From an uncultured beta proteobacterium (lineage in GTDB: Bacteria; Pseudomonadota; Gammaproteobacteria; Burkholderiales; Burkholderiaceae_C), in contig CAIMBE010000009.1 in assembly GCA_903839085.1 (NCBI GenBank), positions 1 to 55,032 of the forward strand: a stretch of DNA of 55,032 nt, in the 5' to 3' direction. This document shows, in pieces, positions 28,142 to 55,032 of this stretch. The first letter of the stretch is position 1; every line of letters begins with the position of its first letter. The notes under the pieces were generated by a model. That model was not told the DNA's origin. It saw only the letters and a program-made list of their open reading frames with translations, and searched no databases. A program made the translations under genes and the position numbers.

Positions 28142-28151
28142 GGTGCTTTCC

Positions 28152-28835
28152 TCAGAATTCGAGTTCGGCGATGCGGATCGGATAAGCGCCCTTGTCACAT
28201 ACCGTGACCCGAATTTGCATCTTCTGGTCGATCTGATCTGATTCGATCAAGGGTGAACTGATGAAGGGTATGGCTGATCCTGGCGCTGTGGCCAGCGTTT
28301 TTTCCAGCACCATGCCACCTGCCAGATGGCGGTCTGCCATGTCGCACTTGGCCACCAAAGCAATCGGTTTCCTGGTGAAGGGATTGACCGTCTCTGCCAG
28401 GGGTCCGCCCTGCGCTGTCAAGGCTTTCAGGCAGGGTCCCCAGGTTCGTGGCACTGGCGTCAAGAGCGGGGTGGCTGTCGGCGCTGGCATCAAGGGCCCC
28501 AGGTCGACCTTTGGGCCGGTTCTTGAACTTGACTCTGATTCTGGATTGGCTGGCGTTGCTTCAGATGCAACGGGCATCACAAGCTGCAGAGCGCCTGCAG
28601 CGCAAGACGCCGGTTCGTAGCTCGCTTTGCCGCGATCGAGGCCGGCCTGGGTAAACCATTTTGTCCAATGCTCACCGTTGCGCTTGGTGATTTCATTGTT
28701 CATTCCTTCCTGGTAGGCGAGACGACCGACCCAGACGACGCTAACCATTGCAAATACCAGAAAGGCCAGAAAGAATATGTCAGGCAGCGTGAGTCGCTGG
28801 CCCTGCAGAGTCGGGTTCTTTATTGAGGCATCCAT
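28152..28835 (-). CDS. Single-span membrane protein, unknown
   Basis: A 227-residue protein with one transmembrane helix (about residues 20-38, IFFLAFLVFAMVSVVWVG), a short charged segment (KRNGEHWTKWFTQAG), a low-complexity Pro/Thr/Ser linker (about 85-120) and a C-terminal part with three cysteines (GPCLKAL, AKCDMADRH, VTVCDKGAY). The C-terminus is probably periplasmic. No family recognised. The start at 28835 follows CGGAG; the longer frame to 29000 overlaps motB. It lies 31 bases after motB and ten before the ion channel gene, so it is likely co-transcribed with both. Confidence 0.7.
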   Translation of the reverse strand: MDASIKNPTLQGQRLTLPDIFFLAFLVFAMVSVVWVGRLAYQEGMNNEITKRNGEHWTKWFTQAGLDRGKASYEPASCAAGALQLVMPVASEATPANPESESSSRTGPKVDLGPLMPAPTATPLLTPVPRTWGPCLKALTAQGGPLAETVNPFTRKPIALVAKCDMADRHLAGGMVLEKTLATAPGSAIPFISSPLIESDQIDQKMQIRVTVCDKGAYPIRIAELEF

Positions 28836-41363: not shown

Positions 41364-41633
41364 ATGGACATTGCCGCCGTCGTCGATCTGGGCCATCAAG
41401 CCATCTGGATGACGGTTCTCGTCTCCGCCCCCCTGCTTGGGATGGCGTTGGCCGTGGGCCTGCTGATAGGCATTGTTCAGGCCGCCACCTCCATCAATGA
41501 GTCAACGCTCTCGTTTATTCCAAAGCTGGCAGCCATGGCCATCACCCTGTCCATCGTGGGTGGCTGGCAAATCGCCATGCTGGTTGACTTCATGCGCAGT
41601 CTGTTTCACCGGATACCGGGTCTTTTCAACTGA
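41364..41633 (+). CDS. fliQ: Flagellar export protein FliQ
   Basis: An 89-residue protein with two hydrophobic helical hairpins (IWMTVLVSAPLLGMALAVGLLIGIVQAATSINESTLSFIPK and AAMAITLSIVGGWQIAMLVDFM), the full family pattern and length. It lies nine bases after fliP. Confidence 0.95.
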   Translation: MDIAAVVDLGHQAIWMTVLVSAPLLGMALAVGLLIGIVQAATSINESTLSFIPKLAAMAITLSIVGGWQIAMLVDFMRSLFHRIPGLFN

Positions 41634-41652
41634 CGCAAGCGATGGACACACC

Positions 41653-42423
41653 ATGAATCTGCTTGCTGCAGATATCGTCGAGCGTTTTGACACGTTTTTG
41701 TGGCCGATGCTGAGGATATCGGCCCTGCTGATTTCCGCGCCTGTCTTCTCGCTGCATGCCCTGAACTTGAGAGTCCGGATACTGCTGGGCCTTGCACTCA
41801 CCTGGATGGTCTATCCGCTGCACCAATGGCCGCATATCGACCCCATGTCTGCCGACGGGATTCTGGAAATTTTCAACCAGTTGGCGATCGGCCTGTTGAT
41901 GGGACTGACCCTGCAGGTGGTCACGGCCGCCTTGTTGGTCGCCGGGCAATCGATCTCCAATGCGATGGGACTTTCGATTGCCAACATGCTCGATCCGAAC
42001 CTCGGCAACGTGCCGGTTCTGGCGCAGTTTTTGCTGATACTCTCGACCTTGATATTTGTCAGCCTGGGTGGGCATGCCATTTTGCTCGGATTGGTGGTGG
42101 ACAGTTTCTCGAGCATGCCGATTGGCAAACAGTTGCTCAGCGAAGCTGCCTGGGCGCATCTCGTGGCCTGGAGTTCCATGATATTCCTGGGCGCTGTGCT
42201 GACCGCCTTGCCGGTGATGGTGGCCCTGCTCTTTATCAACATCGGACTCGGCGTTGCCACGCGGGCTGCGCCAAGTTTGAACATATTTTCAGTCGGATTT
42301 CCGGCCATGATAGCGGCCGGATTTGGGGTCCTGATGCTGGCGCTGCCAAGCATCGCAGGACGGATCCAGTGGCTCTGGCTGCAGGGCTTCGTGCAAGTTC
42401 GAAGTGTGGTCGGAATAAGCTGA
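41653..42423 (+). CDS. fliR: Flagellar export protein FliR
   Basis: A 256-residue membrane protein with about six helices and FliR signatures: LRISALLISAPVFSLHALNLRVRILLGLALTWMV, GLLMGLTLQVVTAALLVAGQSISNAMGLSIANMLDPN and the C-terminal LPVMVALLFINIGLGVATRAAPSLNIFSVGFPAMIAAGF. The start at 41653 gives the normal family length; a frame open from 41473 lies inside fliQ. With FliP and FliQ it forms the export gate. Confidence 0.94.
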   Translation: MNLLAADIVERFDTFLWPMLRISALLISAPVFSLHALNLRVRILLGLALTWMVYPLHQWPHIDPMSADGILEIFNQLAIGLLMGLTLQVVTAALLVAGQSISNAMGLSIANMLDPNLGNVPVLAQFLLILSTLIFVSLGGHAILLGLVVDSFSSMPIGKQLLSEAAWAHLVAWSSMIFLGAVLTALPVMVALLFINIGLGVATRAAPSLNIFSVGFPAMIAAGFGVLMLALPSIAGRIQWLWLQGFVQVRSVVGIS

Positions 42424-42436
42424 AGGCCGCTTCAAT

Positions 42437-43600
42437 ATGTCAGACGAAGACGGCTCTCAGCGCACCGAGCATCCCACCGCCCGGCGCCTCAGGCGCGCAC
42501 GCGATGAAGGCCAGGTAGCGCGCTCGGTCGAGCTTTCAGCGGCGGCCGTCATGCTCTCGGCGACCGTGATGTTTTTCATGATGGGCGGTGCCTGGCTGAA
42601 AACCCTGTCAGGCTATTTTGCGGCGGGCTTTACGTTTGACCGGAAACTGCTGGAGACACCGGCGCTTCTGCCAGCGGCGTTTGCAAGCCAGTTATCGCAC
42701 GCCTTCATGCTCCTGTTGCCGGTCATGCTGCTGGTTCTGGTGGTCGCGGTGCTTGCCGCCGGCGCGACCGGCGGCTATCTCTTCTCGATTGATGCGGTGC
42801 TGCCCAAGTTTTCCAAACTGAGCCCCATGGCGGGAGTGAAAAGAATGTTTGGACCCAACGCGGCCATGGAACTTGTCAAGGCAGTCCTCAAGTGTTCGAT
42901 TGTTGCGGTGGTTCTGCTGGTGCTTATCGATCGGCATTCCTCGGAACTTCTGTTGCTTGGTTCGATGGGCTTGAAACCGGGGCTTGCCCTTGCCGGGTCC
43001 CTGCTCAGCGAGTCGGCGCTTTGGCTGACTTTCAGCCTGGTTTTCATCGCCATGATCGATGTGCCTTATCAGCGCTACACCTTCATGAAGCGCATGCGCA
43101 TGACCAAACAGGAAATCAAGGATGAGATGAAGGACATGGAAGGGCGGCCGGAAGTCAAGGCCCAGATTCGAAGGCGTCAGCGCGAAGTCGCCAACGCAAG
43201 AATGATGCAGAAAGTGAAGGAGGCAGATGTCATCATCACCAACCCCGAACACTTTGCTGTCGCTCTTTCCTACGACCCGAGCGCCGATGGCGCGCCCATC
43301 ATGCTGGCAAAAGGCGCTGATCACATGGCCTTGAGAATCCGCTCCGAAGCCAAGAACCATGGCGTCGAAATCTTCGCCGCTCCGGAGCTTGCGCGCGCTC
43401 TTTATTTCACGACAAACCTTGGGCAACCGATTCCCGATGCGCTGTATTTTGCTGTCGCTCAGGTGATCGCCTACGTCTTTGGCCTGGGGCAAAGCCATCC
43501 GGGTGTTGCTCCGGGGGCCAAGCCAATTCCCCAGATTCCTGCTTCCATGCTGTTTGATGCAGATGGCCACCTTACTTCGACACAGGATCAGTCAAGATGA
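42437..43600 (+). CDS. flhB: Flagellar export switch protein FlhB
   Basis: A 387-residue export protein. The N-terminus DEDGSQRTEHPTARRLRRARDEGQVARS is the FlhB signature. Four membrane helices follow (to about 210). The autocleavage site is N269-P270-E271-H272, at the same position as NPTH in Salmonella but with Glu for Thr; cleavage between N and P should still be possible. The C-terminal cytosolic domain ends with an extended Pro/Gly tail. AAGG precedes the ATG, and its stop overlaps the next start (ATGA). Confidence 0.94.
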   Translation: MSDEDGSQRTEHPTARRLRRARDEGQVARSVELSAAAVMLSATVMFFMMGGAWLKTLSGYFAAGFTFDRKLLETPALLPAAFASQLSHAFMLLLPVMLLVLVVAVLAAGATGGYLFSIDAVLPKFSKLSPMAGVKRMFGPNAAMELVKAVLKCSIVAVVLLVLIDRHSSELLLLGSMGLKPGLALAGSLLSESALWLTFSLVFIAMIDVPYQRYTFMKRMRMTKQEIKDEMKDMEGRPEVKAQIRRRQREVANARMMQKVKEADVIITNPEHFAVALSYDPSADGAPIMLAKGADHMALRIRSEAKNHGVEIFAAPELARALYFTTNLGQPIPDALYFAVAQVIAYVFGLGQSHPGVAPGAKPIPQIPASMLFDADGHLTSTQDQSR

Positions 43601-45003
43601 CAATGCCGTTTCGCCCAGGCGCACAAGATGTTTCGCTCGCCACGCCCCTGCTGTTTCGGGCGATCGATCGCCTTCGCCTTGAGGGTTATGTGGCCTCGCT
43701 CACGCAGGATGGCATGAGCCTGTCAATGGTCAGCAGCCAAGAAGCCATCCTTGATTACTACAGCAAACTGCTTGTCGCCCGGCTGCGTCAGACGGCACCT
43801 GATTTCACGGTGGAGGTCTATTTTCCGGCAAGTTCCGAGGCGCTTCTTGCGCGTTTCAATGAGGTGCTGGTCAATAGCTCGATACAGGAGGCGATGGACG
43901 GCAAAGTCAGCCTTGCCGCGCCGCGCATATGGATAGTTCATGATGCCAGCGCGCTGCCAGACCATGAAATCAAGCTCCTGGCACGTCTGGTACAGCACTT
44001 TCCGGCGGCCAACATCAGGGTTGTGCTGCTGATGACGGTGGCCAGCCAAAAGCCGAGCCTGTTAAGTTCCTTCGGGCGCAGCATCTTATGCTGGGAAATC
44101 GAGCCTCCAACGCCGGAGCAGGCGCAAAACATGCTGACCGAAGCCAGAGCCGACGGCCGCGAGGCTGCGGTGCAATCCCTGCTCAAGAACTTGTCGTTGT
44201 CCAACGTGATACCGATCCGGCCTGAACCGCTGCTTGCCACAACGCTGCCGTCGAAGGAGGCTCCTGAGGACGCCGAACCGATGCCGGTGACGGCGGCAAT
44301 TTCGGGCGCTAGATGGCGCTGGATGGTTGGCGGCGCCGCCTCGCTGATTGCCTCGGCGCTGTTGGTGGCCATGTTTCACGCCTCATCACAGGGCGCCGGC
44401 GGACTCACCTGGAGTTGGCAGGCACTGATGGCTGGAGGAAGTCCGATGGCCAGTGCGGCTCGGCCCGTTGCCGCGGCCACTGCCTCGACGCAGCAGGCCA
44501 AGGGTCCGATCGCCAATGCCAGTGCCGCTCCAGGCCCGGCACCCCTCAATGGGGCGAGTGCGCCGCCCGTCGAACTCATTCTGCCAACGGCCACGCGGCC
44601 AATCAGCGGTGAGCCGGTCGAAACCGCCGCAGAACGTGCTGTCCCGGTCAATCGGCCATTTGAATTGCTGGTTGGACAGGGTTGGGTAGAGCAAATGCCC
44701 AAAGGCGCCTTCTTGATTCAGCATGTTGCTCTACCCACCTACCAGCAGGCAATGCTCTGGACGCAGCGGCACCCGGATCTGGCGAGTGCCCGCGTTGTTG
44801 CGACCTATGTGCCACCTGAAAAAATGCCGCAATACGTTGTGGCGTCAGGACCCTTTGTTTCATTTTCCGAAGCCAGAGCCCGCATTCAGGGTGGCGGCAT
44901 TCCTAAAGATTCGCAGATTCGGTCCGTGCTTTCGATCAAGGAGCGCATGGCCCCTGCGCTCGCCGAGGACGGCAGCGCCAAGCGCAAGGAGAAAACTCAA
45001 TGA
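43597..45003 (+). CDS. SPOR-type membrane protein with AAA-like N-terminal half
   Basis: A 468-residue protein. The N-terminal half (about 1-190) reads like an ExeA/DamX-type P-loop domain that has lost its Walker A: helix SQEAILDYYSKLLVARLRQ, strand APRIWIVHDASALPDHEIKLLARLVQHFP (Walker B-like), RVVLLMTVASQKPSLLSSFG. One transmembrane helix follows (WMVGGAASLIASALLVAMF, about 248-266), then an Ala/Pro linker and a C-terminal SPOR-like domain (FELLVGQGWVEQMPKGAFLIQHVALPTYQQAMLW…YVVASGPFVSFSEARARIQ, about 350-445) that should bind peptidoglycan. DamX-like overall. Its ATG overlaps flhB and its stop overlaps the next gene. Confidence 0.7.
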   Translation: MTMPFRPGAQDVSLATPLLFRAIDRLRLEGYVASLTQDGMSLSMVSSQEAILDYYSKLLVARLRQTAPDFTVEVYFPASSEALLARFNEVLVNSSIQEAMDGKVSLAAPRIWIVHDASALPDHEIKLLARLVQHFPAANIRVVLLMTVASQKPSLLSSFGRSILCWEIEPPTPEQAQNMLTEARADGREAAVQSLLKNLSLSNVIPIRPEPLLATTLPSKEAPEDAEPMPVTAAISGARWRWMVGGAASLIASALLVAMFHASSQGAGGLTWSWQALMAGGSPMASAARPVAAATASTQQAKGPIANASAAPGPAPLNGASAPPVELILPTATRPISGEPVETAAERAVPVNRPFELLVGQGWVEQMPKGAFLIQHVALPTYQQAMLWTQRHPDLASARVVATYVPPEKMPQYVVASGPFVSFSEARARIQGGGIPKDSQIRSVLSIKERMAPALAEDGSAKRKEKTQ

Positions 45004-45410
45004 GCGAAACGCAATTCATCCGCAGCACGGAGCCGCATGAGGTCAACCTGCCAGAAGGCAGCCATGTGGCCAAGAGCAGATCAGCCGACGCGGGGGAGCC
45101 TGTCGTGCGGCAATTGATTGTCGAATCCGAGCCACTCGAAATCGTACAGGTCCTGGCTGACCGCAGAGTTGACCTGCCGCCGCCAATTTCCGGGTTACCG
45201 CTCGCTGATGCGACGCTGAAAGTTGCTGCCATTGAAGATCCTGGCGCTGCGTCGGTGCGCCCTGCGGATGAGCAGGGGGCTAGGCCGGAGGCCTCTGTTC
45301 TGGAACCAGCAACGGACTTCCCCGCGCGCCTAATTCATCTGAAGATTGAAAACAACAAAGTTCGCGGCGAACTCGACGGTCTTGAGGACCTGTTCAATTC
45401 AGGTGTCTGA
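45000..45410 (+). CDS. Small soluble protein of unknown function
   Basis: A 136-residue, acidic, mostly disordered-looking protein; the only compact part is the C-terminal FPARLIHLKIENNKVRGELDGLEDLFNSG. No signal or membrane helix. The start codon overlaps the stop of the SPOR protein (ATGA), so the two are translationally coupled at the end of the fli operon. Family not recognised. Confidence 0.65.
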   Translation: MSETQFIRSTEPHEVNLPEGSHVAKSRSADAGEPVVRQLIVESEPLEIVQVLADRRVDLPPPISGLPLADATLKVAAIEDPGAASVRPADEQGARPEASVLEPATDFPARLIHLKIENNKVRGELDGLEDLFNSGV

Positions 45411-45452
45411 TTTTTTGCAAGCAGTCCGAATCATGATTCCCAGGTGAACCCT

Positions 45453-46229
45453 ATGACAACCGAAACAACTTCCCCCTCTGCCGTTGGTCAAACCGACGTC
45501 ACGCAAGACATTCAATCAGCGATGTTCGATTCGGCAGAGTTGGCCACGCGCAGTGCGTCGCTGGCGGCAAAGGCCGGTCTTGAAATGCATCAGGGCGCGC
45601 AGGAGCTGATGAAGACATCGGTTTCCCAGCAGAAGATAAACAAGATCCTCTTGGGCATCTTTGGCGTCATGTTGCTGCTGGCGCTGACCCTGTTCACGGT
45701 CATCAGTTATCGCTTGCAGGACCGGGTCAGTCAACTCGACGCCATGGTATTGGCGGTCGGCAAAAGGGTTATCAGCATGGACGCGGCCGTCGAGTTGTTC
45801 AACTCGGTCAGTGATGTCGTCAAGGACGTCTCGCAAAAGCAGGATGCGATCAGCAATGCCCAGGGAAAACTGGAACAGCGCATCGATGAAGCCATCAAAA
45901 GCACGCCGGTGCTGCCGGACTTGAAGGCTAAACCAGTGGACGACAAAACCAAAGAACTTCTCAGGTTGATCCAGGAAGTCAATGCCAAACTCCAGTTGCA
46001 GGCCAGTTCCGTCAAGTCTGTCTCCGCGCAGGTCCAAAAGCTGCAGGGCAGTCTGCCCGATGCCGGCAATTTCCGCCGTGACATGGAGGCCATGGTGCAG
46101 CAGATGAAGGAGCGCTCTGTGCCGGAAGCGGCTGTCGCTGCCGCAGCGCCAAGCAGCATCAAACAACGCGAGCGGCTGGTTCAATTTCCCAGAACATCAG
46201 CCGCCGGTGCGACGACCGAAAAACCATGA
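45453..46229 (+). CDS. Single-span membrane protein with coiled coil, unknown
   Basis: A 258-residue protein: an N-terminal cytoplasmic helix (AELATRSASLAAKAGLEMHQGAQELMKTSVSQQ), one transmembrane helix (ILLGIFGVMLLLALTLFTVISY, about 64-85) and a long probable coiled coil (LQDRVSQLDAMVLAVGKRV … KQDAISNAQGKLEQRIDEAI … IQEVNAKLQLQASSVKSVSAQVQKLQGSL). The start at 45453 (AGGTG upstream) is preferred over GTG at 45444. Last gene of the plus-strand fli operon, 42 bases after the preceding one, and convergent with the sigma-54 activator. Unrecognised; a scaffold role is only a guess. Confidence 0.7.
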   Translation: MTTETTSPSAVGQTDVTQDIQSAMFDSAELATRSASLAAKAGLEMHQGAQELMKTSVSQQKINKILLGIFGVMLLLALTLFTVISYRLQDRVSQLDAMVLAVGKRVISMDAAVELFNSVSDVVKDVSQKQDAISNAQGKLEQRIDEAIKSTPVLPDLKAKPVDDKTKELLRLIQEVNAKLQLQASSVKSVSAQVQKLQGSLPDAGNFRRDMEAMVQQMKERSVPEAAVAAAAPSSIKQRERLVQFPRTSAAGATTEKP

Positions 46230-46256: not shown

Positions 46257-47378
46257 TCAGGCCGGGCGCAGGCCAAATTTCTGTATCTTCTCGATCAGCG
46301 TTGTTCTCTGGAGATTCAGGATGCGTGCGGTTTGCGAGATGTTGCCGTTGGTGCGACTCAGCGCCTGAGATATGAGATCGCGCTCAATCTCCGCCAGTCT
46401 GTGCTTGAGTGACAAGCCCTCGGGCGGAAGAATCGGCAGTGCCTGCGACAGCATGGTTATCCTCTCCACCTCGTTGCCCAGGATCGGGGAAGCGTCATCG
46501 GCCGTTCCGCCTGGTCCGGGGTTCGCCTGCGGCATGGCCATGTCCAACCGGTTCCGCGTCTCGCCGTCGGCGGGATCGGCGCCCTGCAGCGCAACCAGGC
46601 CCCTAGGCAGCAAACTGGCGGGCAGAGCATGAAATTCAAGGCATTGACCACCAAACAGCGTGCTGAATCGGTCGATCAGGTTCGACAGTTCGCGAACATT
46701 TCCAGGCCATGTATAAGCTTGCAGTGCCTTGAGAAAAGTCGCCGAAAAGGTGATCGGTTTCTGATTGCTGGAGGCATGCTGCCTGGAGAAAAACTCAAGC
46801 AGCAGGGGCACATCACTGATTCGTTCGCGCAGCGCCGGTGTGTTCAGAGGAATGACGTTGAGCCGATAGTAGAGGTCCTCCCGAAAACGGCCCGCCAGAA
46901 TTTCAGCCTCCAGGTCCCGGTGCGTTGCGGCAATCACCCGCACATCCACCGGAATTGAGCGCACGCCACCGACCGGATCGATTGTTTTTTCCTGCAGAAC
47001 GCGCAGCAACTTGACCTGAATCTCCAACGACATGTCACCGATTTCATCGAGGAATATGGAGCCCCCGTGCGCCAGCTCAAAGCGGCCCATCTTGTCCGTG
47101 ATGGCGCCGGTGAACGCACCTTTCTTGTGTCCAAAAAGCTCGCTTTCCAGCAACTCTTTGGGTATGGCAGCGCAGTTGATCGGAACAAAATTGCCGGCCG
47201 CGCGGTTGGACTGCGTGTGCAGTGATCGCGCCACAATCTCCTTGCCGGTGCCGCTCTCTCCAGTGATCAACACAGTCGAGCTGGATACCGCCACCACCGG
47301 CAGAATCTTGCGCAGAGCCCGTATTGCGTCGCTCTCTCCGACGAATGCAAGCGAATTTTGGGAGTGCCGGTTACTCAA
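46257..47378 (-). CDS. Sigma-54-dependent activator, FleQ/FlrA-like without receiver domain
   Basis: A 373-residue activator. The AAA+ domain has Walker A GESGTGKE at 40-47, the sigma-54-contacting GAFTGA at 87-92, Walker B IFLDEIGD near 108-115 and the R-finger region [10 protein letters not shown]. The C-terminal Fis-type helix-turn-helix is [30 protein letters not shown] (about 340-369). FleQ and FlrA carry an N-terminal receiver-like domain; here only 12 residues precede the AAA+ domain. The start is TTG at 47378 with GGA nine bases upstream, so the N-terminus is somewhat uncertain, but no continuation is open in frame. It probably activates the flhA sigma-54 promoter. Confidence 0.85.
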
Positions 47379-47572: not shown

Positions 47573-48754
47573 GTGAAAAGTCCAGTTGAAGATGTGCCCG
47601 TCGATCAGGCTGGCGCTGACTCCGTACCGCCATCGATCTGTTTGCCTCCAGCGCGGTTTGATGGCGGCGCTGCGCACAACAATATCGGGTTCATGTATGC
47701 CACCGGCCTGGGCGTTGAGCAGGATTATGCTGAAGCTCTCAAATGGTACGGCCTGGCAGCGCAGCAGGGCTATGAGCCGGCACAGATCAACCTCGGCGTC
47801 ATGTATGCCAACGGTCAGGGCGTTGAGCAGGATTATTCACGCACCCTCGAATGGTATCGATTGGCCGCGGCCAAGGGGTCTGCGGCGGCCCGCTATGCCC
47901 TGGGCGTCATGCATGCCAACGGTCAGGGCGTTATGCAGGATGAGGTGCAGGCGCGCCAGTGGTATCTGCTGGCGGCCGAGCAGGGTCATGAGAAAGCCCA
48001 GTTCAACCTGGGTCTGATGTTCCTCAATGGTCAGGGCGGTGCGAGCGATGAACCACAAGCCATCAAATGGTTCGAGGCGGCCGCCGACCTGGGCAGCGCG
48101 GCAGCACAATACAGCCTTGGCGTCATGTACGACAGCGGGCGCGGAGTGGCCCAGAATCACGAAGCGGCACGCGGCTGGTATCTGCTTGCGGCAACCCAGG
48201 GCGACACTTTTGCACAAGTCAACCTTGCCTTGCTGCATCACAACGGGCAGGGCGGGTCGCCGGATTTTGCCCAGGCCCTCAAGTGGTACCACCTGGCCGC
48301 TGCCGATGGCGACCCGCACGCTCAATTCAACATCGGTGTCATGCATGCCAATGGACAGGGGGTCGCGCAAAGCCATGCACAGGCTTTGCGCTGGTTTGAC
48401 ATGTCTGCGGCGCAGGGTGATCGCGTTGCGCAGCACAACCTGGGCCTGATTTACCAGAGCGGCCAGGGCGTTGCCCGGGATGACGCGCAGGCCCTGAAGT
48501 GGCTTCGCCTGTCGGCAGCGCAAGGGTTTGCCCCAGCCCAGGTTGACCTCGGTTGGATGTATGCCAACGGACAGGGCACGCTGCAGGATTATGAGCGTGC
48601 CCACATGTGGTTCAACATGGGTGCGGCAGCGGGCAATCCGGACGCATTGAACGGCCGCGACCTGGTTGCCAATCAAATGACGCCGCAGCAGATTGCGCAG
48701 GCGCAGAAGATGGCGCGCGACTGCCAGAAGCGCAACCTGATCGAACCTGATTGA
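47573..48754 (+). CDS. Cytoplasmic Sel1-repeat protein, nine repeats
   Basis: A 393-residue protein without a signal peptide. After a 30-residue leader come nine Sel1 repeats of 36 residues (each with NLGxMYANGQGV…ALKWYxLAAxQG), from about residue 34 to 365, then a charged C-terminal tail with one cysteine (MARDCQKRNLIEPD) similar to that of the exported Sel1 protein at 25450. Sel1 arrays form a curved protein-binding solenoid. It starts at GTG with AGAGGT upstream. It is divergent from the FleQ-like gene and opens a plus-strand run that ends in flgP-flgT. Confidence 0.9.
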   Translation: MKSPVEDVPVDQAGADSVPPSICLPPARFDGGAAHNNIGFMYATGLGVEQDYAEALKWYGLAAQQGYEPAQINLGVMYANGQGVEQDYSRTLEWYRLAAAKGSAAARYALGVMHANGQGVMQDEVQARQWYLLAAEQGHEKAQFNLGLMFLNGQGGASDEPQAIKWFEAAADLGSAAAQYSLGVMYDSGRGVAQNHEAARGWYLLAATQGDTFAQVNLALLHHNGQGGSPDFAQALKWYHLAAADGDPHAQFNIGVMHANGQGVAQSHAQALRWFDMSAAQGDRVAQHNLGLIYQSGQGVARDDAQALKWLRLSAAQGFAPAQVDLGWMYANGQGTLQDYERAHMWFNMGAAAGNPDALNGRDLVANQMTPQQIAQAQKMARDCQKRNLIEPD

Positions 48755-48768
48755 AGCTCGGTCGGGTC

Positions 48769-50025
48769 ATGCAAGTTCAAGCCCATTTTTCCGGAATCCG
48801 CCAAGCCGTCACAAGGCAACTGGAGGGTGCTGCTCAGTGCGTGCGGGTGCTCGCCTGCCGGTTCACGGACAACAAGCTGTTTGAAGCGCTGCTGTCGTGT
48901 CAGCGTCGGGGCGTGGCAGTCTCGCTGATTATTTCGGATTGCGATGTCAATCGTCAGTCATCGATCGCCTGGGAGCGCCTCAGCGCCCTGGGCGGGCGAA
49001 TTTTCCGCCTGCCTGACGGGCCCGATGTGGTCGAGGACTTTGACCGATCATTCTGTCTGATTGACAACGCAAGCGTCATCAGCGGTGATTTCAAATGGAC
49101 CCGGTTACAGGATGCAGCGACGCAGGTTTCCATCTTGATCCAATGCGACGAGGAGATTGTGGCGTACTTTGAGCGCAGGTTCGCGCGTTTGACGGGCGAG
49201 CCATGGCAGGCCAGCGAACGCAGCGGCGGTGAGCCTGACCCGTTGGCTGCCTCGATCCTTGAGCACGGCGCGGGCCTGAGCCAGTATCAGGACCCCGAGC
49301 TTGAAGAATTGCGTTTGCGCGCCCGGATGATGGAGGCAAGAGTCCTGGCTGTCGATACCGAAATTGCGGATATGCATCGGCAGATTCATCTGTTTGACCA
49401 TCAGCAGGAACGGGCGATTGGCGACCTGACGCGCCGCTTTCTCGACCTCAAGCGCCGCTATCTGCATGCCATGTACCGTGAGACGCAGGAGGACCTGCAA
49501 CGCCAGCAGGCGCAGGCGGCGGACGATGTCTATCGGCAGTATCAGGAGGCGCAGGCTGACCGTTCTCTGGAGGCTGAGCCCGAACAACTCGACCCGCAGC
49601 AACAGCGCGAACTCAAGCAGTTGTACCGGAAACTCGCCATGCGATGTCATCCTGATCGCGTCAGAGACGAGGACAAGGCGCATGCCAACGTATTTTTTCA
49701 GCAGTTGCAATTGCTGTTTCAGAACAGCGATCTGGACAGTCTGAAGAAGTTGAAGACCCGGATCGAGGCCGGCCTGGGTGTCAAGGACGACCTGGTCTCG
49801 GCCGATCAGTTCCAGTACCTCCGGCAGCACCTGAAGGATTTGCAGCAAACCCTGGTGCAGAGAAATCAGCAACTGGCCTCGGTCTGCCAGAGCGCGAGCT
49901 GGCAGGAACTCAGTTCGAAGCCGGACTGGAGCAAATGGTTCGAGCAGCAGGCCGAGCGCCTCAAGGCTGCGCTGCAGCACTACATGACCGAGTTGAACCA
50001 GCTTTCACAGGAGCTCCGCGCGTGA
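48769..50025 (+). CDS. PLD-like / coiled-coil / J-domain fusion protein
   Basis: A 418-residue protein with three parts. Residues 1-145 look like a phospholipase-D-like domain (AHFSGIRQAV…FTDNKLFEALLSCQRRGVAVSLIIS … SFCLIDNASVISGDFKWT). Its HKD motif is damaged: D99 remains, but the His and Lys positions hold D92 and S94, so it is probably not a nuclease. Residues 175-275 are helical and coiled-coil (RARMMEARVLAVDTEIADMHRQIH). Residues 278-335 form a DnaJ J domain with QLYRKLAMRCHPDR, HPD at 294-296, the Hsp70-stimulating motif. The C-terminus is helical. The start at 48769 fits the PLD-like opening; TTG at 48751 overlaps the previous stop. Its stop overlaps the next start. Confidence 0.75.
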   Translation: MQVQAHFSGIRQAVTRQLEGAAQCVRVLACRFTDNKLFEALLSCQRRGVAVSLIISDCDVNRQSSIAWERLSALGGRIFRLPDGPDVVEDFDRSFCLIDNASVISGDFKWTRLQDAATQVSILIQCDEEIVAYFERRFARLTGEPWQASERSGGEPDPLAASILEHGAGLSQYQDPELEELRLRARMMEARVLAVDTEIADMHRQIHLFDHQQERAIGDLTRRFLDLKRRYLHAMYRETQEDLQRQQAQAADDVYRQYQEAQADRSLEAEPEQLDPQQQRELKQLYRKLAMRCHPDRVRDEDKAHANVFFQQLQLLFQNSDLDSLKKLKTRIEAGLGVKDDLVSADQFQYLRQHLKDLQQTLVQRNQQLASVCQSASWQELSSKPDWSKWFEQQAERLKAALQHYMTELNQLSQELRA

Positions 50026-51410
50026 ATGCGCTGGTACCTGCTGCCCCGCAGAATCAGCTTTCAAGTGCCTTGCTGCAGCGTTGCGATATTGTTCGGGTCA
50101 CGCTCGGCAGCCTGCAGCAGGCTGAAGTCATGCAGTTCTTCGAACAACAGCCCGAGCTCTTTTTTCAGTGCTTGCAACGCCATTACGCGCTGAGTCCGGC
50201 GCAACTTCTGCACGACGCCGATCGATGGAACTGGAAATTGCTGAGCGCCAATCGCGCGATCGACTGGACCCGCGAGGGGCTGGCGCTTCTGGGCGGTCAA
50301 TTGGGTTGGGGCAAGCTCAGCGCGGACGCTCAATTGCCGTGGAGCAGCGAACTGATTGCCTGCTTTCAGGAGCACTGGGATTGGGAACGCCTGCGGAGAA
50401 ACCCCGGTTTGCCTTGGAATATCGAGCTGATTGATGGCTACCGGGATCGGTGGGACTGGGGCTGGCTCAGTTGGCACGCGGGGCTTCCATGGAGCACCCA
50501 GCTCATCGATGGCTACGCTGACCGCTGGGACTGGGCCGGCTTGAGCGCCAATCCCTCGCTGCCCTGGAGTTGGGGACTGCTGGAGCGCTTTTCGGCGCGC
50601 TGGAATTTTGCCTGGCTCAGCGGCAACGTCGCGCTGCCGTGGAGCAGCGAACTGCTGGAGCGCCACCAGAAGCGCTGGGACTGGGATCGCCTGAGCGGCA
50701 ACGCCACGCTGCCGTGGAGCAACGAGCTGCTGGAACGCCATGGTGAGCGTTGGGATTGGGGGCGGCTCAGCGCCAACAGCGCGCTGCCGTGGAGCGCTGA
50801 GTTGCTGGAACGCCACCTTGAACGCTGGGACTGGGAGGGCCTGAGCGGCAACATGGCGCTGCCCTGGCGCAGCGAACTGCTGGAGCGCCATCATGAGCGT
50901 TGGGACTGGGGGCGGCTCAGTGCCAACAGCGCGCTGCCGTGGAGCGCTGAGTTGCTGGAACGCCACCTTGAACGGTGGGACTGGGCAAGCCTGAGCGGCA
51001 ACTCCGCGCTGCCATGGTGCAGCGAACTCGTGGCGCGTTACCTCGAGCGCTGGGATTGGGAGCGCCTGAGCGGCAACGCTGCGCTGCCCTGGGGCATCGA
51101 ATTGTTGGAGCGTCACACGCCGCTTTGGGACTGGGAGCGCCTCAGCGAAAATCCAGGCCTGCCCTGGAGCAGCGAGCTGATTGAGCGCTGTGCGGAGCGA
51201 CTGAATTGGGCGAGCTTGAGCGGCTCCCGGTGTCTTCCGTGGAGTCCCGAACTGTTCAGACGCTTTCAGAAAAACTGGTACCCGGCCCTGATTGCCGCTC
51301 ACCAGGAGTTTCAAATCTGCACCCTGTCGGAAATTCAGGTGGAACAACTCTTGCTTAAGGTGACGGGTTGTCAACCAAGGATTCCAGCATGGCAGACCCT
51401 AATCACCTGA
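50022..51410 (+). CDS. Protein with fourteen 25-residue Trp-rich repeats
   Basis: A 462-residue protein. After about 68 helical residues, fourteen tandem 25-residue units (50226-51275) follow a common plan: WDW..LS.N..LPW..ELLER. Three tryptophans per unit are nearly invariant. Units 8 and 10 are identical in protein and differ in three bases. A short C-terminal helical end follows (NWYPALIAAHQEFQICTLSEIQVEQLLLKV). No signal or membrane helix; probably a cytoplasmic solenoid. The start is GTG at 50022 overlapping the previous stop (GTGA), with AGGAG upstream. I do not know a function for this repeat type. Confidence 0.88.
   Translation: MNALVPAAPQNQLSSALLQRCDIVRVTLGSLQQAEVMQFFEQQPELFFQCLQRHYALSPAQLLHDADRWNWKLLSANRAIDWTREGLALLGGQLGWGKLSADAQLPWSSELIACFQEHWDWERLRRNPGLPWNIELIDGYRDRWDWGWLSWHAGLPWSTQLIDGYADRWDWAGLSANPSLPWSWGLLERFSARWNFAWLSGNVALPWSSELLERHQKRWDWDRLSGNATLPWSNELLERHGERWDWGRLSANSALPWSAELLERHLERWDWEGLSGNMALPWRSELLERHHERWDWGRLSANSALPWSAELLERHLERWDWASLSGNSALPWCSELVARYLERWDWERLSGNAALPWGIELLERHTPLWDWERLSENPGLPWSSELIERCAERLNWASLSGSRCLPWSPELFRRFQKNWYPALIAAHQEFQICTLSEIQVEQLLLKVTGCQPRIPAWQTLIT
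50226..51275 (+). repeat. Fourteen 75-bp tandem repeats
   Basis: In-frame 75-base units encoding the Trp-rich repeats. Units at 50751 and 50901 (150 bases apart) are almost identical, pointing to a recent two-unit duplication; outer units are diverged. Confidence 0.92.
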
Positions 51411-51604
51411 GCGCAACTTCCACGCACCTGCAGGCTGCGGCGCAGCATTATCTCAATGTCCAGACGATGCACATTGGATCGGCGCTTCACAAGGCCTTGC
51501 AGCAGACGCATCAGGCCCACGGCCCCAAGCTGAATTCAGCCAGCCACCATGATCATGCGGCCCTGCAGCATGCGAGCTGCCGCGCTGAGCATCATGCAGA
51601 GTAA
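51389..51604 (+). CDS. His-rich 71-residue protein
   Basis: A small soluble protein with 13 histidines in 71 residues, spread as HL, THL, QHY, MHI, LHK, THQAH and a dense end, SHHDHAALQH…EHHAE. Alanine and glutamine are also frequent, and a helix is likely over STHLQAAAQHYLNVQTMHIGSALHKALQQTHQ. Could bind metal ions, but that is only from composition. AAGGA lies seven bases before the ATG, and the gene overlaps the Trp-repeat gene by 22 bases; a second Sel1 gene starts 21 bases after it. Confidence 0.6.
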   Translation: MADPNHLSATSTHLQAAAQHYLNVQTMHIGSALHKALQQTHQAHGPKLNSASHHDHAALQHASCRAEHHAE

Positions 51605-51625
51605 GAAACCGGCAGGAGTTCCAAC

Positions 51626-53470
51626 GTGAAGAGTTTGCTTGATGATGCCGATGCCGCCTATGGTCGCGGCGACTATACGAACGTCCTGAGAATCTGTCGA
51701 CCACTGGCTACGCTGGACTATGCTGCGGCGCAAAACAATCTCGGCTTCATGTATGCCAACGGGCATGGCGTCAAACTTGATTACGCCGAGGCCCTCAAGT
51801 GGTATCGCCTGGCGGCCCAGCAGGGCTACGCGCCGGCGCAATACAACCTTGGTTTCATGTATGCCCACGGCCAGGGCGTCGAGCTCGACTATGGAGAAGC
51901 CTTCAAGTGGTATCAATTGGCTGCCACGCAGGGTGTGGCCGAGGTGCAGACCAACCTTGGGTTCATGTTTGCCAATGGCCAGGGTGTGGAACAGAACTAC
52001 CAGGAGGCGATTAAGTGGTTTGAGCTCGCCGCAGTTCAGGGCGATGCCACCGCGCAGTTCAATCTGGGTTTCATGTTTGCCCGAGGCGAGGGCGTCGAGA
52101 TAGATCTGGCGCAGGCGCTCAAGTGGTATCAGCTGGCCGCCAGTCAGGGTCACGCCTACGCCCAGTTCAATCTGGGCTATATGTACGCCACAGGGAAAGC
52201 CATTGAACAGGACTACGCCGAGGCGCTCAAATGGTATCGGCTGGCTGCAGCACAGGCAGACGCCTCGGCGCAATACAACCTGGGGGTCATGCACGCCAAT
52301 GGGCAGGGTACGCCGACTGATTACGCAGCGGCGTTCGAGTGCTTTCAATTGGCCGCCGCGCAGTCGGATGCCGGCGCGCAGTACAACCTGGGCGTCATGT
52401 ATGCCGATGGACAGGGCGTCGGGCAGGACTACGCAATGGCGTTCGAGTACTACCAGCTGGCCGCAGCGCAAGGCGACCCGGCTTCGAATTACCACCTTGG
52501 CCTGCTGTATGCGCAGGGGCAGGGCGTCGAGCAGGATGACGCACGGGCGCTGGCGTGCTACCAGCTGGCCGCGGCACAGGGCGATGCCCCTGCCCAGTAT
52601 GCCCTGGGCGTGATGAGCGGCCTGGGTCAGGGAACCGAGCAGAGCCATGAGCAGGCGCGCCACTGGTACGAGCTGGCCGCGGCGCAGGGAGACGCTGCCG
52701 CGCTGCATAACCTGGGTGTCCTGTATGCCAACGGGCAGGGCGTTGAGCCAGACCTCGACGTTGCCGCCAAATGGTACCGACTGGCGGCGGCAAAGGGCGA
52801 CAGTTCGGCACAGGCCCATCTTGATTCGCTGTTCGCCATGCAACCGGAAGTTGCACAGAATCATGCGCAAGCCTTCGCTGCTTATCAAACGGCAGCCAAC
52901 CGCGGCGATGCCGCAGCCCAGTACAACCTGGGCCTGATGTATGTCCAGGGTCAACATGTGATGCGTGACCCGGTTGAGGCGACCAAGTGGTTTAGCTTGA
53001 GCGCCGCGCAAGGTGATGTCGATGCACAGTATGAACTCGGGGCCCTGTGTGCCAACGGCCAGGGCGCTGCGACCGATCACCAGGAAGCCCTGACCTGGTA
53101 CCAATTGGCCGCAGAGCAGGGGCATCTGGCTGCCAGAATGAATCTGGGCCTGATGTATGCGCTGGGGCAGGGTGCTGACCGCGACTTTGCGCTGGCGGCC
53201 GAGCACCTGCAATCGGCGGCCGAGCAGGGCAATACCCATGCCCAATACAACCTGGGCGTCCTGTACGCCGTTGGTGAAGGGGTGGCGCAGGACTCGGCAA
53301 GCGCTCTCGAGTGGTATTTGCGAGCCGCAGCAGGCGGCGACAGCGCGGCCCAGTTCAACCTTGGATTCATGTACGCCAACGGGGACGGGACGGCGCAGGA
53401 TTACGCCGAGTCCCTGAAGTGGTATCGACTCGCCGCCGCCGCCAGTGAAAAATTGCTAAAGCTTGCTTGA
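51626..53470 (+). CDS. Cytoplasmic Sel1-repeat protein, sixteen repeats
   Basis: A 614-residue protein made almost wholly of sixteen Sel1 repeats of 36 residues (YNLGxMYANGQGVxQDYAEALKWYxLAAAQGD); one near the middle (AHLDSLFAMQPE) is degenerate. No signal peptide. It resembles the 393-residue Sel1 protein four genes upstream. It starts at GTG with AGGAG upstream. The array suggests a large protein-binding solenoid; partner unknown. It is followed after 54 bases by the LPP20/FlgP-like gene. Confidence 0.9.
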   Translation: MKSLLDDADAAYGRGDYTNVLRICRPLATLDYAAAQNNLGFMYANGHGVKLDYAEALKWYRLAAQQGYAPAQYNLGFMYAHGQGVELDYGEAFKWYQLAATQGVAEVQTNLGFMFANGQGVEQNYQEAIKWFELAAVQGDATAQFNLGFMFARGEGVEIDLAQALKWYQLAASQGHAYAQFNLGYMYATGKAIEQDYAEALKWYRLAAAQADASAQYNLGVMHANGQGTPTDYAAAFECFQLAAAQSDAGAQYNLGVMYADGQGVGQDYAMAFEYYQLAAAQGDPASNYHLGLLYAQGQGVEQDDARALACYQLAAAQGDAPAQYALGVMSGLGQGTEQSHEQARHWYELAAAQGDAAALHNLGVLYANGQGVEPDLDVAAKWYRLAAAKGDSSAQAHLDSLFAMQPEVAQNHAQAFAAYQTAANRGDAAAQYNLGLMYVQGQHVMRDPVEATKWFSLSAAQGDVDAQYELGALCANGQGAATDHQEALTWYQLAAEQGHLAARMNLGLMYALGQGADRDFALAAEHLQSAAEQGNTHAQYNLGVLYAVGEGVAQDSASALEWYLRAAAGGDSAAQFNLGFMYANGDGTAQDYAESLKWYRLAAAASEKLLKLA

Positions 53471-53524
53471 TTGGTGCCGAATCAGTGGGAACACATTCAC
53501 TCACCACCACGTCAAGGAGCGCTG

Positions 53525-54001
53525 ATGAAGCACCACCTCACCATCACCCTGGGCATGAGTTTGGCCCTGGCCTGCCTCGCCGCTTGTCAGAGTCCCGGGG
53601 GAGCGCACGCATCGGCTGAATCGGTCACGCGCCTGGCACCGATGGTCGAAAAAAGAGACACCCTGAGCGCCACCGGTTATGCCGTCATCAGCGTGCAGGG
53701 GCATCGCAATCCTGCGCAACAACGGCTGATGGCCATCCGCGCTTCAAAGCTGGATGCGTACCGCTCGCTTACCGAGCAGGTGTACGGTCTGCGTCTGGAC
53801 GCAACAGCCACTGTGGCCGACATGATGGTTCAGAATGACACCTTTCGCAGCCGTGTCGAGGGCGTCATTTACGGCGCAACCCTGGTCAGCATCACGCCAT
53901 CGGGCGACGACACCTACGAGACCACGATGACCCTGGACAAGGCGATCGTCAATGATCTGCGTGCGCTCTATCTGGGGCAAATGGTCTCGAAAGCCAATTG
54001 A
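53525..54001 (+). CDS. flgP: LPP20-family lipoprotein, FlgP-like
   Basis: A 158-residue outer-membrane lipoprotein. The lipobox LAAC ends at C21 after a short hydrophobic signal. The body, TLSATGYAVISVQGHRNPAQQRLMAIRASKLDAYRSLTEQVYGLRLDATATVADMMVQNDTFRSRVEGVIYGATLVS, is the LPP20 pattern seen in FlgP of Vibrio and Campylobacter, part of the flagellar outer-membrane-associated ring or disc. Strong ribosome site AAGGAG. The neighbour downstream is FlgT-like, which supports the flagellar assignment; a non-flagellar LPP20 lipoprotein remains possible. Confidence 0.78.
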   Translation: MKHHLTITLGMSLALACLAACQSPGGAHASAESVTRLAPMVEKRDTLSATGYAVISVQGHRNPAQQRLMAIRASKLDAYRSLTEQVYGLRLDATATVADMMVQNDTFRSRVEGVIYGATLVSITPSGDDTYETTMTLDKAIVNDLRALYLGQMVSKAN

Positions 54002-54028
54002 GCCGAATCCAGCGATTGGGTGACCCGC

Positions 54029-55032
54029 ATGAAGACCCGAACTCGCAGCGCGTTGCGTTGGCCGTTGGCTTCGCTGCTGACAATAGCCATCGGCTTGACG
54101 GCTGTCAGCGTCAAGGCTGAGCAGGCGCTGTCACAGGAAGAGAAGCTGTCGGCAATCCGACAGGGTTTGGTGCAGGCGGCGATCGATGGCCCGACCAAAG
54201 TGCAATCCATGGCCTGGATTGACGACAAAGGGGCGTTGCGCGAGATCAGCTCATTTAGAACCGGCATGCAGGTGCGCGGAGTTCGCGTTCTTTCCTATCA
54301 GCGTGACAGTCAGGGTCAACCGGTGGCCGACCTGCGTTGGCAAGCCCTTGCCGCCAGGCCAGCAGACAGCCAGCCGTCTCCGGCGACCGATCCGAAGCCC
54401 GGCGTGGCCCCTCCCGCTTGCAAGGCGGCGCCGTCTGCCGGCCGCCTGCAGCACGTCATCGGGCTGACGATTGCCGCCGCGCCCGACTGGACGGTCGATG
54501 AACTGCCTGCCATCCGCTTGCTGGAAAATCAGCTCCCTCATCAATGGCGCGGCGCCGCCGATGGCGCAGTGGTCTGGCGCCTGGCGCCGAGCACCGCGGG
54601 CGTTCGATCGGCCTATGAGAACGCCCTGCTCGGATCAAGCGCCGACCAAATGCCATGGCAGGCCAGGCTCTCGCTGCGGCCCCTGAGCAGGCCGAGCCCC
54701 TGGTTGCTCGTGTTGCCCCACCACGTTTCAGAAGGTACGCTGGTTGCAGGCATCGCGCCCGAGGGCCTGATGCAGCTCGATTTTTCTCTGACGGCGCGCA
54801 ACCAGCATGAGCCACTGTTTGAAGCGCGCTCGCAGATCCGGTGGCGCACCGACAGGTCAAACTGGGAGGCGCCGCGACTGTCGGACGAGTCGCAGGAACT
54901 GCTGGCCATGCAGTTGCAGAACTGGTCGCAGCAAATCAGGCAGCGCCTGGCCTGCGAGCCGGTGTTGCCCGAGGTCATATCTAACAACCGCGATGGTGTT
55001 CGCATCAACGCCGGTGCGCTCGCGGGTGTGCG
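54029..55032 (+). CDS. flgT: FlgT-like flagellar H-ring protein, partial (3' end outside window)
   Basis: 334 codons are visible and open to the window end. A signal peptide (WPLASLLTIAIGLTAVSVKA, cut near residue 31) is followed by QEEKLSAIRQGLVQAAIDGPTKVQSMAWIDDKGALREISSF, like the FlgT N-terminal domain. A Pro/Ala linker and a middle domain (DWTVDELPAIRLLENQLPHQWRG…QLDFSLTARN…) come next, and a cysteine plus VRINAGALAGVR near the edge fits the start of the FlgT C-terminal part. FlgT belongs to the H ring around the basal body in Vibrio. The assignment leans on the adjacent FlgP-like gene. Confidence 0.65.
   Translation, partial: MKTRTRSALRWPLASLLTIAIGLTAVSVKAEQALSQEEKLSAIRQGLVQAAIDGPTKVQSMAWIDDKGALREISSFRTGMQVRGVRVLSYQRDSQGQPVADLRWQALAARPADSQPSPATDPKPGVAPPACKAAPSAGRLQHVIGLTIAAAPDWTVDELPAIRLLENQLPHQWRGAADGAVVWRLAPSTAGVRSAYENALLGSSADQMPWQARLSLRPLSRPSPWLLVLPHHVSEGTLVAGIAPEGLMQLDFSLTARNQHEPLFEARSQIRWRTDRSNWEAPRLSDESQELLAMQLQNWSQQIRQRLACEPVLPEVISNNRDGVRINAGALAGV

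Follow-up and report, generated by a model that had tools for sequence, protein, structure and literature searches.

The polar flagellar cluster of freshwater Comamonadaceae carries, in dozens of genomes, a module of five genes (genes 1–5) whose central member, PLD-J, joins a PLD-like domain lacking its catalytic residues to a J-domain. We favor, at about even confidence, the reading that these genes form an accessory cytoplasmic J-protein/solenoid module acting on the polar flagellum via DnaK.

The module was recognized in a window of 55,032 bases that comprises a whole contig. The initial annotation had described seven genes packed in a single direction, and this run is real, with confirmed coordinates, all seven being open frames on the + strand. 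Gene 1 (47573..48754) encodes a Sel1-repeat protein of 393 aa, gene 2 (48769..50025) the 418-aa PLD-J, gene 3 (50022..51410) a Trp-rich repeat protein with an exact 25-residue period, gene 4 (51389..51604) a His-rich peptide of 71 aa with 13 His, and gene 5 (51626..53470) a second Sel1-repeat protein, of 614 aa. They are followed by flgP (53525..54001) and flgT (54029..55032), the latter cut by the contig end, since the window is the whole contig. The spacings hold as well, with overlaps of 4 bases (genes 2/3) and 22 bases (genes 3/4), a gap of 21 bases (genes 4/5), and gaps of 54 and 27 bases before flgP and flgT. For gene 2, most aligned relatives use the ATG at 48769; a start at the TTG at 48751 instead would make gene 2 overlap the stop of the Sel1 gene.

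The setting of the run is a polar flagellar cluster, with FlhA, an FlhF-type SRP54 GTPase, an FlhG-type ParA protein, MotA, and MotB encoded on one strand, and FliK, L, M, P, R, and FlhB on the opposite one. On the + strand of the window, fliR (41473..42423; TIGR01400 over cut-off) and flhB (42437..43600; TIGR00328 over cut-off) are followed by three uncharacterized backbone genes kept among loci, namely 43597..45003, which has no match in Pfam or NCBIfam, a small gene at 45000..45410, and 45444..46229, with one membrane segment by hydropathy. Between these and gene 1 lies a divergent sigma-54 activator (46257..47378, – strand; Sigma54_activat, E 3.9e-71, and HTH_8) without a receiver domain, which is the left border of the insertion and adjoins either the module or flgP in every locus that reaches it. 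Genes 6 and 7 of the run encode the H-ring/basal-disk proteins FlgP, a lipoprotein, and FlgT. FlgP is identified by an LPP20 match, a visible lipobox (LAAC), and a 12-sequence profile that matches solved FlgP chains at E about 1e-19 (9hmf, E 5.7e-10). The cut window copy of FlgT by itself has no Pfam or NCBIfam match; a 13-sequence profile matches 3w1e (“Flagella basal-body protein”) at E 2.5e-5, and FlgT_C is found in 7 of the 13 profile members, at E up to 0.1. The initial annotation had taken these two proteins as partners of the run, which did not stand: both are older backbone neighbors outside the module, and the flagellar cluster to which they belong exists without genes 1–5.

To follow the module beyond this contig, we scanned genome contigs and retained the 43 loci with a long match to gene 2, a set that leaves out three weak partial matches (L059–L061). 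Homologs of gene 2 are not scattered: in 41 of the 43 loci PLD-J occupies the same spot, between the divergent activator and flgP, and the gene order is the same, which is more than chance would give. FliR/FlhB or FlgP/FlgT are also present on the contig in 34 of these 41 flagellar loci, and the remaining 7 are short contigs on which only the activator and the uncharacterized backbone neighbors are visible. The 41 loci were found via gene 2, a search that loci having lost the module would escape. Among 18 further FlgP loci (leaving out G123, a weak FlgP match), 16 have the activator and flgP side by side with no module, and the other two, G173 and G236, hold the module tail only, cut by the contig end, with genes 2 and 3 not found. 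In a tree of the activator (40 sequences from loci with the module, 15 from empty sites) one change suffices to account for the distribution, with support of 100/99.

The two core genes are inherited together. Gene 3 directly follows gene 2 in all 42 loci that leave room for it, and all 34 flagellar loci whose sequence spans the position have a counterpart of gene 4, partly masked in one case. Among 89 genomes of the genus, full-length PLD-J and the Trp protein occur in the identical 10, and gene 2 lies inside the flagellar cluster in 9 of these. The separation is sharp, with full-length PLD-J scoring at least 381 bits and the next best match 36 bits; 86 of the 89 genomes pass E 0.001, but apart from ten, their matches are short, confined to J or PLD, and no higher than 36 bits. 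Several records are shared between the genus genomes and the loci (the G171 contig and L020, for example), so that the two sets are not independent. PLD-J/Trp pairs also occur outside flagellar clusters, in L020/G171 and L021, and the core pair is thus not flagellar by nature. Searches across wider groups returned little: in 150 family genomes the single gene 2 sequence found its own genome and weak partial matches in 12, and in 399 genomes of the order and 319 of the family, where profile or protein searches scored the best four to five candidates per genome, the only matches were the own genome and a single genome with PLD alone. Because these searches gave almost the own genome alone, the wide locus set rests on the contig scan.

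Divergence of the module genes tracks that of the cluster. Pairwise distances of genes 1, 2, 3, and 5 follow those of FlhB (rho 0.82–0.89, 24 sequences), as do those of other flagellar cluster genes in the same comparison (0.60–0.92). These four genes are under purifying selection, with dN/dS of 0.03–0.28 in 14 close pairs (for gene 1 orthologs, 0.03–0.14 in 14 close pairs, none of which includes the window copy). We therefore rejected a chance passenger as a full account, given one site in 41 loci, FlhB-like distances, and dN/dS well below 1. A phage or plasmid origin was also rejected, as matches in viral, plasmid, and PHROGs sets are few, partial, or weak: in viral contigs there were 3 J matches, all short and partial; in a plasmid collection gene 3 matched 5 records and gene 2 matched 2, in no case over 80% of the query; and in PHROGs gene 3 had a single repeat match and gene 2 three weak matches. 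A tree of gene 2 does not place the flagellar sequences in one group, as sequences that keep the catalytic HKD residues lie between the window clade and the larger flagellar clade; a single flagellar clade is not rejected (p-AU 0.35, in a test picked once the tree was known). The sister sequences P0017, P0019, P0031, P0035, P0037, P0042, P0047, P0048, P0050, and P0055 have lost HKD and measure 402–422 aa. Most simply, genes 1–5 entered the flagellar cluster by one insertion; alternatively, the spot may have been entered twice, or left again in some lineages.

The architecture of PLD-J suggests what the module might do. Gene 2 matches Pfam PLDc_2 and SACK1, and encodes a PLD-like domain without HKD, a coiled coil (judged by eye), and a J-domain with an HPD tripeptide. 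The window PLD domain lacks the catalytic His and Lys, and at the PLD place neither the window nor any of the 41 flagellar loci has the motif HxKxxxxD, while HKD is retained in 19 of a set of 65 proteins and in L020. A profile match to FAM83B chains (E 7e-11) points to the PLD-type fold of the FAM83 SACK1 domain. In FAM83 proteins, which are eukaryotic and not known to carry a J-domain, this domain has lost catalysis and anchors CK1. The DnaJ match falls just short of the Pfam cut-off (26.7 vs. 27.8 bits), covering positions 13–47 of 63 and being incomplete at the first helix. The J-domain reading of the initial annotation is nevertheless backed by the HPD tripeptide, which follows basic helix II in 41 of 41 flagellar loci and whose three residues do not vary across an alignment of 29 sequences.

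The other genes encode repeat proteins and a small peptide. The Sel1 scores far exceed the Pfam cut-off of 30.7 bits, at 280.9 bits for gene 1 (E 3.8e-86, 9 stretches) and 456.8 bits for gene 5 (E 1e-141, 15 stretches). Gene 3 carries 13 LPW motifs and diverged N-terminal repeats, and our scans matched its 25-residue repeat to no dedicated Pfam family. Two relatives, each one case among 50, connect this repeat with the Hsp70 system: P0085 fuses a coiled coil–J domain to Trp repeats, the coiled coil–J part matching the long relative P0022 at E 9e-23 and gene 2 at E 3e-19, and in P0072 an Hsp70 ATPase domain is followed by Trp repeats. These single fusions to J and Hsp70 domains favor the chaperone module that the initial annotation had proposed, with FlgP and FlgT left outside it. 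In a simple hydropathy check, neither a signal peptide nor a membrane segment was seen in genes 1–5, the top 19-residue value being 1.24, as compared with 1.62 for the FlgP and 1.63 for the FlgT leader in this crude check. Direct chaperoning of exported FlgP/FlgT by genes 1–5 is hence unlikely.

Based on these features, we propose that genes 1–5, inserted most simply once between the activator and flgP, encode a helper, built into the cluster, for assembly or control of the flagellum. The J-domain of PLD-J would most likely recruit the housekeeping DnaK; a dedicated Hsp70 was considered and rejected, since none of the three Hsp70 matches in the genome (two full-length, one partial in a 352-aa frame) lies on the window's contig. 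The dead PLD domain may serve as a binding or dimerizing platform and the Trp solenoid of gene 3 as a client-binding arm, while the Sel1 proteins and the His-rich peptide might hold the complex and its client. Such a complex would act on the polar flagellum from its cytoplasmic side, as an assembly aid or as a limit on where and how many flagella start, the latter resembling the role of SflA in Vibrio, which represses flagellar initiation when FlhF and FlhG are absent.

A literature search found no description of this gene set, in keeping with the initial annotation; the idea itself has a precedent in SflA, a flagellar regulator with a J-domain plus TPR/Sel1-like repeats (PMC7226244). SflA of Vibrio alginolyticus shares with the module this combination and the context of polar flagellation with FlhF/FlhG present. 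According to the same source, however, it is one Vibrio-specific membrane protein with periplasmic repeats, encoded outside the flagellar cluster. In the module, by contrast, J and Sel1 reside on separate, apparently cytoplasmic proteins encoded inside the cluster, to which a dead PLD domain, a Trp repeat protein, and a His-rich peptide are added; no single polypeptide combines J with TPR/Sel1-like repeats, and no signal sequence or membrane segment is seen. By this analogy, the best reading is that the module works like SflA without being an SflA member. A kinship in theme exists with the bacterial GAP1-N2 GTPase conflict systems, whose clusters, as described in PMC7159879, hold HSP70, GrpE, and DnaJ fusions, among them an Hsp70 without a peptide-binding domain and a DnaJ domain fused to FNIII repeats. 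These systems differ in being GTPase-centered; the main text of that source has no match for “flagell”, and no PLD-J/Trp set is apparent there.

A more far-reaching version, which we hold only tentatively, is that a stand-alone PLD-nuclease/J/Trp system, perhaps once serving defense or damage response, became a flagellum-dedicated Hsp70 machine. It would have lost its nuclease site, gained the His-rich partner peptide, and moved into the flagellar cluster, ending as a DnaK-driven controller of assembly or placement in which the Trp repeat is a so far undescribed client-binding solenoid.

Other roles are conceivable. Genes 1–5 could serve general proteostasis or the cold-stress response, with no flagellar client and a merely incidental place in the flagellar cluster, as suggested by AtcJABC of Shewanella oneidensis, an operon built like the module around a dedicated J-protein with DnaK and partners, and needed for growth in the cold (PMC6715715). 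AtcJ differs in being short, and its partners have no known domains in that source. The stand-alone PLD-J/Trp pairs of L020 and L021 are compatible with such a role, which we nonetheless regard as unlikely in view of the single site across all 41 loci and the flagellar location in 9 of 10 genus genomes. The module could also be a cytoplasmic structure added to the polar motor or to the pole, a Sel1 and Trp scaffold whose J-domain fold no longer works with DnaK: both repeats are of scaffold type, the J match is incomplete, and Sel1 proteins such as MotX, chains of which are among the weaker matches of gene 5, are real motor parts. MotX, however, carries a signal peptide, unlike genes 1–5 as far as seen, and HPD is kept in every flagellar locus although the neighboring PLD active site is lost, which makes this role rather improbable. 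We see a slim chance that the module is a domesticated or still active PLD-nuclease-type defense guarding the flagellum, for example against flagellum-using phages. HKD is intact in the long gene 2 relative of L020, which weakly matches DrmC of DISARM (E 5e-8), Trp repeats elsewhere are fused to TIR, kinase, and further effector-type domains or lie on a plasmid under a DarT-annotated gene, and an uncharacterized PHROGs family matches gene 3 (E 1.7e-13). Gene 2 differs from DrmC and the PLD nucleases in its lost HKD, the FlhB-following distances are unlike those of mobile defense genes, and a known defense system was rejected, as PADLOC finds nothing for genes 2–4, and its PtuA repeat matches to genes 1 and 5 are weak, with no stretch passing.

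Scored with a pattern and weights of our own making based on the sigma-54 consensus, 11 of 41 regions have a clear or near-consensus site before gene 1, and the window has none upstream of this gene; we thus rejected the argument that a common sigma-54 promoter proves co-regulation. Upstream of flgP in 12 of the 16 module-less loci, which were scanned likewise, there was no convincing site. That the module binds or unfolds the receiver-less activator to tune flagellar gene expression is very improbable, for although this activator borders it in every locus reaching that far and those 11 sites lie before gene 1, the same activator adjoins flgP without the module in 16 relatives, so that its basic control there does not need the module.

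Returning to the proposed DnaK-linked helper of the polar flagellum, our comparisons suggest that a J/Sel1-type flagellar helper has precedent. They draw attention to the 25-residue Trp repeat, and the co-occurrence of PLD-J with the Trp protein, together with the fusions, makes a direct, testable Hsp70 prediction, for which the empty-site relatives provide natural controls. The module would be a second case of J-domain and Sel1 proteins in the control of polar flagellar number or place, here encoded inside the flagellar cluster itself.

Gene calls in the window, which is the whole contig of a 3.78-Mb genome (98.6% complete), bore out the seven-gene run and the spacing proposed in the initial annotation: five genes that we call the module, namely gene 1 (Sel1, 47573–48754), gene 2 (PLD-J, 48769–50025), gene 3 (Trp repeat, 50022–51410), gene 4 (His-rich, 51389–51604) and gene 5 (Sel1, 51626–53470), then flgP (53525–54001) and flgT (54029 to the contig end), all on the forward strand. 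The run continues a polar flagellar cluster, which encodes FlhA, an SRP54-type GTPase (FlhF position), MotA, FliS, a ParA-type ATPase (FlhG position), a sigma factor (FliA position) and MotB on the reverse strand, the names FlhF, FlhG and FliA being assigned from domain and position, and FliK, FliL, FliM, FliP, FliR and FlhB on the forward strand. Three conserved genes without annotated function follow, then a divergent sigma-54 activator lacking a receiver domain (46257–47378, reverse strand) and the run itself. The three genes (43597–46229), flanked by flhB and the activator, look like unrecognized parts of this polar flagellar type, since relatives of at least one of them were also found in several module-less clusters. 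A PAS-GGDEF-EAL protein is encoded left of the flagellar cluster (21491–24073), and an ion channel gene (Ion_trans, 26510–28198) lies near motB.

Searching one genome per species in GTDB r220 for gene 2 relatives with a 29-sequence alignment, we collected 46 loci; 43 have a long match, and the other three, with weak partial matches, were dropped. The order activator (reverse), Sel1, PLD-J, Trp, His-rich, Sel1, FlgP, FlgT was found in 41 of the 43, judged as far as each contig extends, the two exceptions being L020 and L021. FliR/FlhB or FlgP/FlgT share the contig in 34 of these 41 flagellar loci, and the remaining seven, on short contigs, retain the activator and at least one of its uncharacterized backbone neighbors. 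Gene 3 follows gene 2 in all 42 loci with room for it, including L020 and L021, and a His-rich counterpart is present in all 34 flagellar loci spanning its place (29 by pattern, 4 by eye and 1 partly masked). An almost perfect sigma-54-like site, TGGTACGCAAACTGCA, precedes gene 1 in 11 of the 41 regions (L023, L028–L031, L034, L037, L042, L051, L056 and L057) and was not found in the window or in L016–L019. Downstream of flgT, L018 (16444–18289) and equivalents elsewhere encode a small protein with a hydrophobic N terminus and then a 366-aa protein, neither with a Pfam match, as well as a separate frame resembling the FlhB C terminus (34% identity over 83 aa). Because family- and order-wide genome samples yielded the module in its own genome only, it appears to be limited to few lineages, mainly named as Comamonadaceae or beta-proteobacteria.

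The PLD-J and Trp proteins belong together. Within the genus, the 10 of 89 genomes with full-length PLD-J are precisely those with the Trp protein, and several of their records recur among the loci of the GTDB-wide search (PLD-J: ten matches of at least 381 bits, the rest at most 36 bits; Trp: E up to 1e-10). The pair sits inside the flagellar cluster in nine, including the window, and elsewhere in the tenth, the genome of the L020 contig (G171), which has no FlgP match. Among 50 Trp-repeat relatives, two fusions, each a single case, connect the repeat to chaperone domains: P0085 joins a related inter-domain region, a coiled coil and a J-domain to Trp repeats (30% identity to gene 2 over 160 aa, E 3e-19; 25% to the long relative P0022 over about 300 aa, E 9e-23), and in P0072 an Hsp70 ATPase domain is followed by Trp repeats in place of the substrate-binding domain. 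The 25-residue repeat (P0066–P0115), for which our scans returned no Pfam family of its own, is a fusible domain, also joined to kinase, TIR, HRDC, DprA-type, uracil-DNA glycosylase, SMI1 and other domains. It also appears under a DarT-annotated plasmid gene (plasmid match H3) and in the phage family phrog_3532, which carries no annotated function. Outside a recognized flagellar setting, L021 holds a PLD-J gene without HKD, the PLD catalytic motif, together with a Trp gene and a divergent Sel1 gene (53% identity to gene 5 over 461 aa), possibly an intermediate arrangement.

FlgP searches gave 10 matches in 89 genus genomes, 7 of them in genomes with full-length gene 2, and 17 in 399 family genomes (its own, 15 others and one weak). 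We compared the FlgP loci of the three genus genomes without full-length gene 2 and of the 15 family genomes. Activator and flgP are direct divergent neighbors, at most 355 bases apart, in 16 of these 18 (L110, L134–L148), which makes genes 1 to 5 an insertion between the two; the remaining contigs, G173 and G236, break off inside the module tail. In an activator tree of 55 rows (40 module, 15 empty), one change suffices (branch support 100/99), although losses within the module clade could be missed because module loci were collected via gene 2; the genus-wide FlgP search of 89 genomes revealed no clear module loss. The nearest empty relative, L110 (G188), lies on a long branch.

The gene 2 tree (80 rows) complicates a single insertion, and there may have been two insertions or later exits. 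Flagellar rows do not form one group: rows bearing HKD fall between the larger flagellar clade and the window's clade with its sister group, on branches of modest support (82/70 and 90/90), and the nonflagellar L021 lies near the base. This sister group consists of ten short PLD-J proteins without HKD (P0017, P0019, P0031, P0035, P0037, P0042, P0047, P0048, P0050 and P0055). Forcing the 41 flagellar rows together against 18 HKD or nonflagellar rows, a test picked after the tree was seen, cost 1.88 log units (p-AU 0.35), so that one origin is not rejected.

HKD is kept as HHKFCLID in all 17 protein relatives of 467–489 aa, in two fragments and in L020. It is absent at the PLD place from the window and all 41 flagellar loci, motif matches in L056, L057, P0056 and P0060 sitting in the coiled coil, and from the nonflagellar L021 too. 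The HKD rows all fall to the same side of a single branch (support 90/90; 94% of bootstrap trees), a placement that would fit a single loss if HKD is ancestral. The J-domain tripeptide HPD is kept in all 41 flagellar loci, and HKD lost with HPD kept is the pattern expected if the activity of the J-domain is what matters and the PLD fold serves as a platform. L149 (G607) encodes a PLD protein whose HKD looks intact, followed by a 493-aa kinase-like frame (by eye), with no J or Trp genes beside it.

Pairwise distances of genes 1, 2, 3 and 5 track those of FlhB (rho 0.82–0.89; 23 loci and the window), as do those of other cluster genes (rho 0.60–0.92); none of 500 permutations matched any of these values. 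Estimated from the 14 closest pairs (overlapping in membership, the window not among them), dN/dS was 0.03–0.14 for gene 1, 0.15–0.28 for gene 2, 0.14–0.23 for gene 3, 0.08–0.17 for gene 5 and 0.11–0.30 for FlgT. Gene 2 is fast-evolving (median identity 37%) yet constrained.

A simple hydropathy check revealed no export signal in the products of genes 1 to 5, which are thus probably cytoplasmic, unlike FlgP and FlgT, which carry leaders. We recognized no description of this gene set in searches of the literature on flagella, J-proteins, Sel1 and Trp repeats or conflict systems (mostly nonsubscription papers). According to PMC7226244, Vibrio SflA combines a cytoplasmic J-domain with TPR/Sel1-like repeats, localizes with flagella and, in the absence of FlhF and FlhG, represses the initiation of flagella. 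FlhF/FlhG-type genes share the cluster with the module here. Unlike SflA, the module is not a single polypeptide and shows no membrane segment in the hydropathy check. In the simplest account, a dedicated J-protein complex would guide DnaK to a flagellar client on the inner face of the pole, and, by analogy, the module would work like SflA without being a member of that family.
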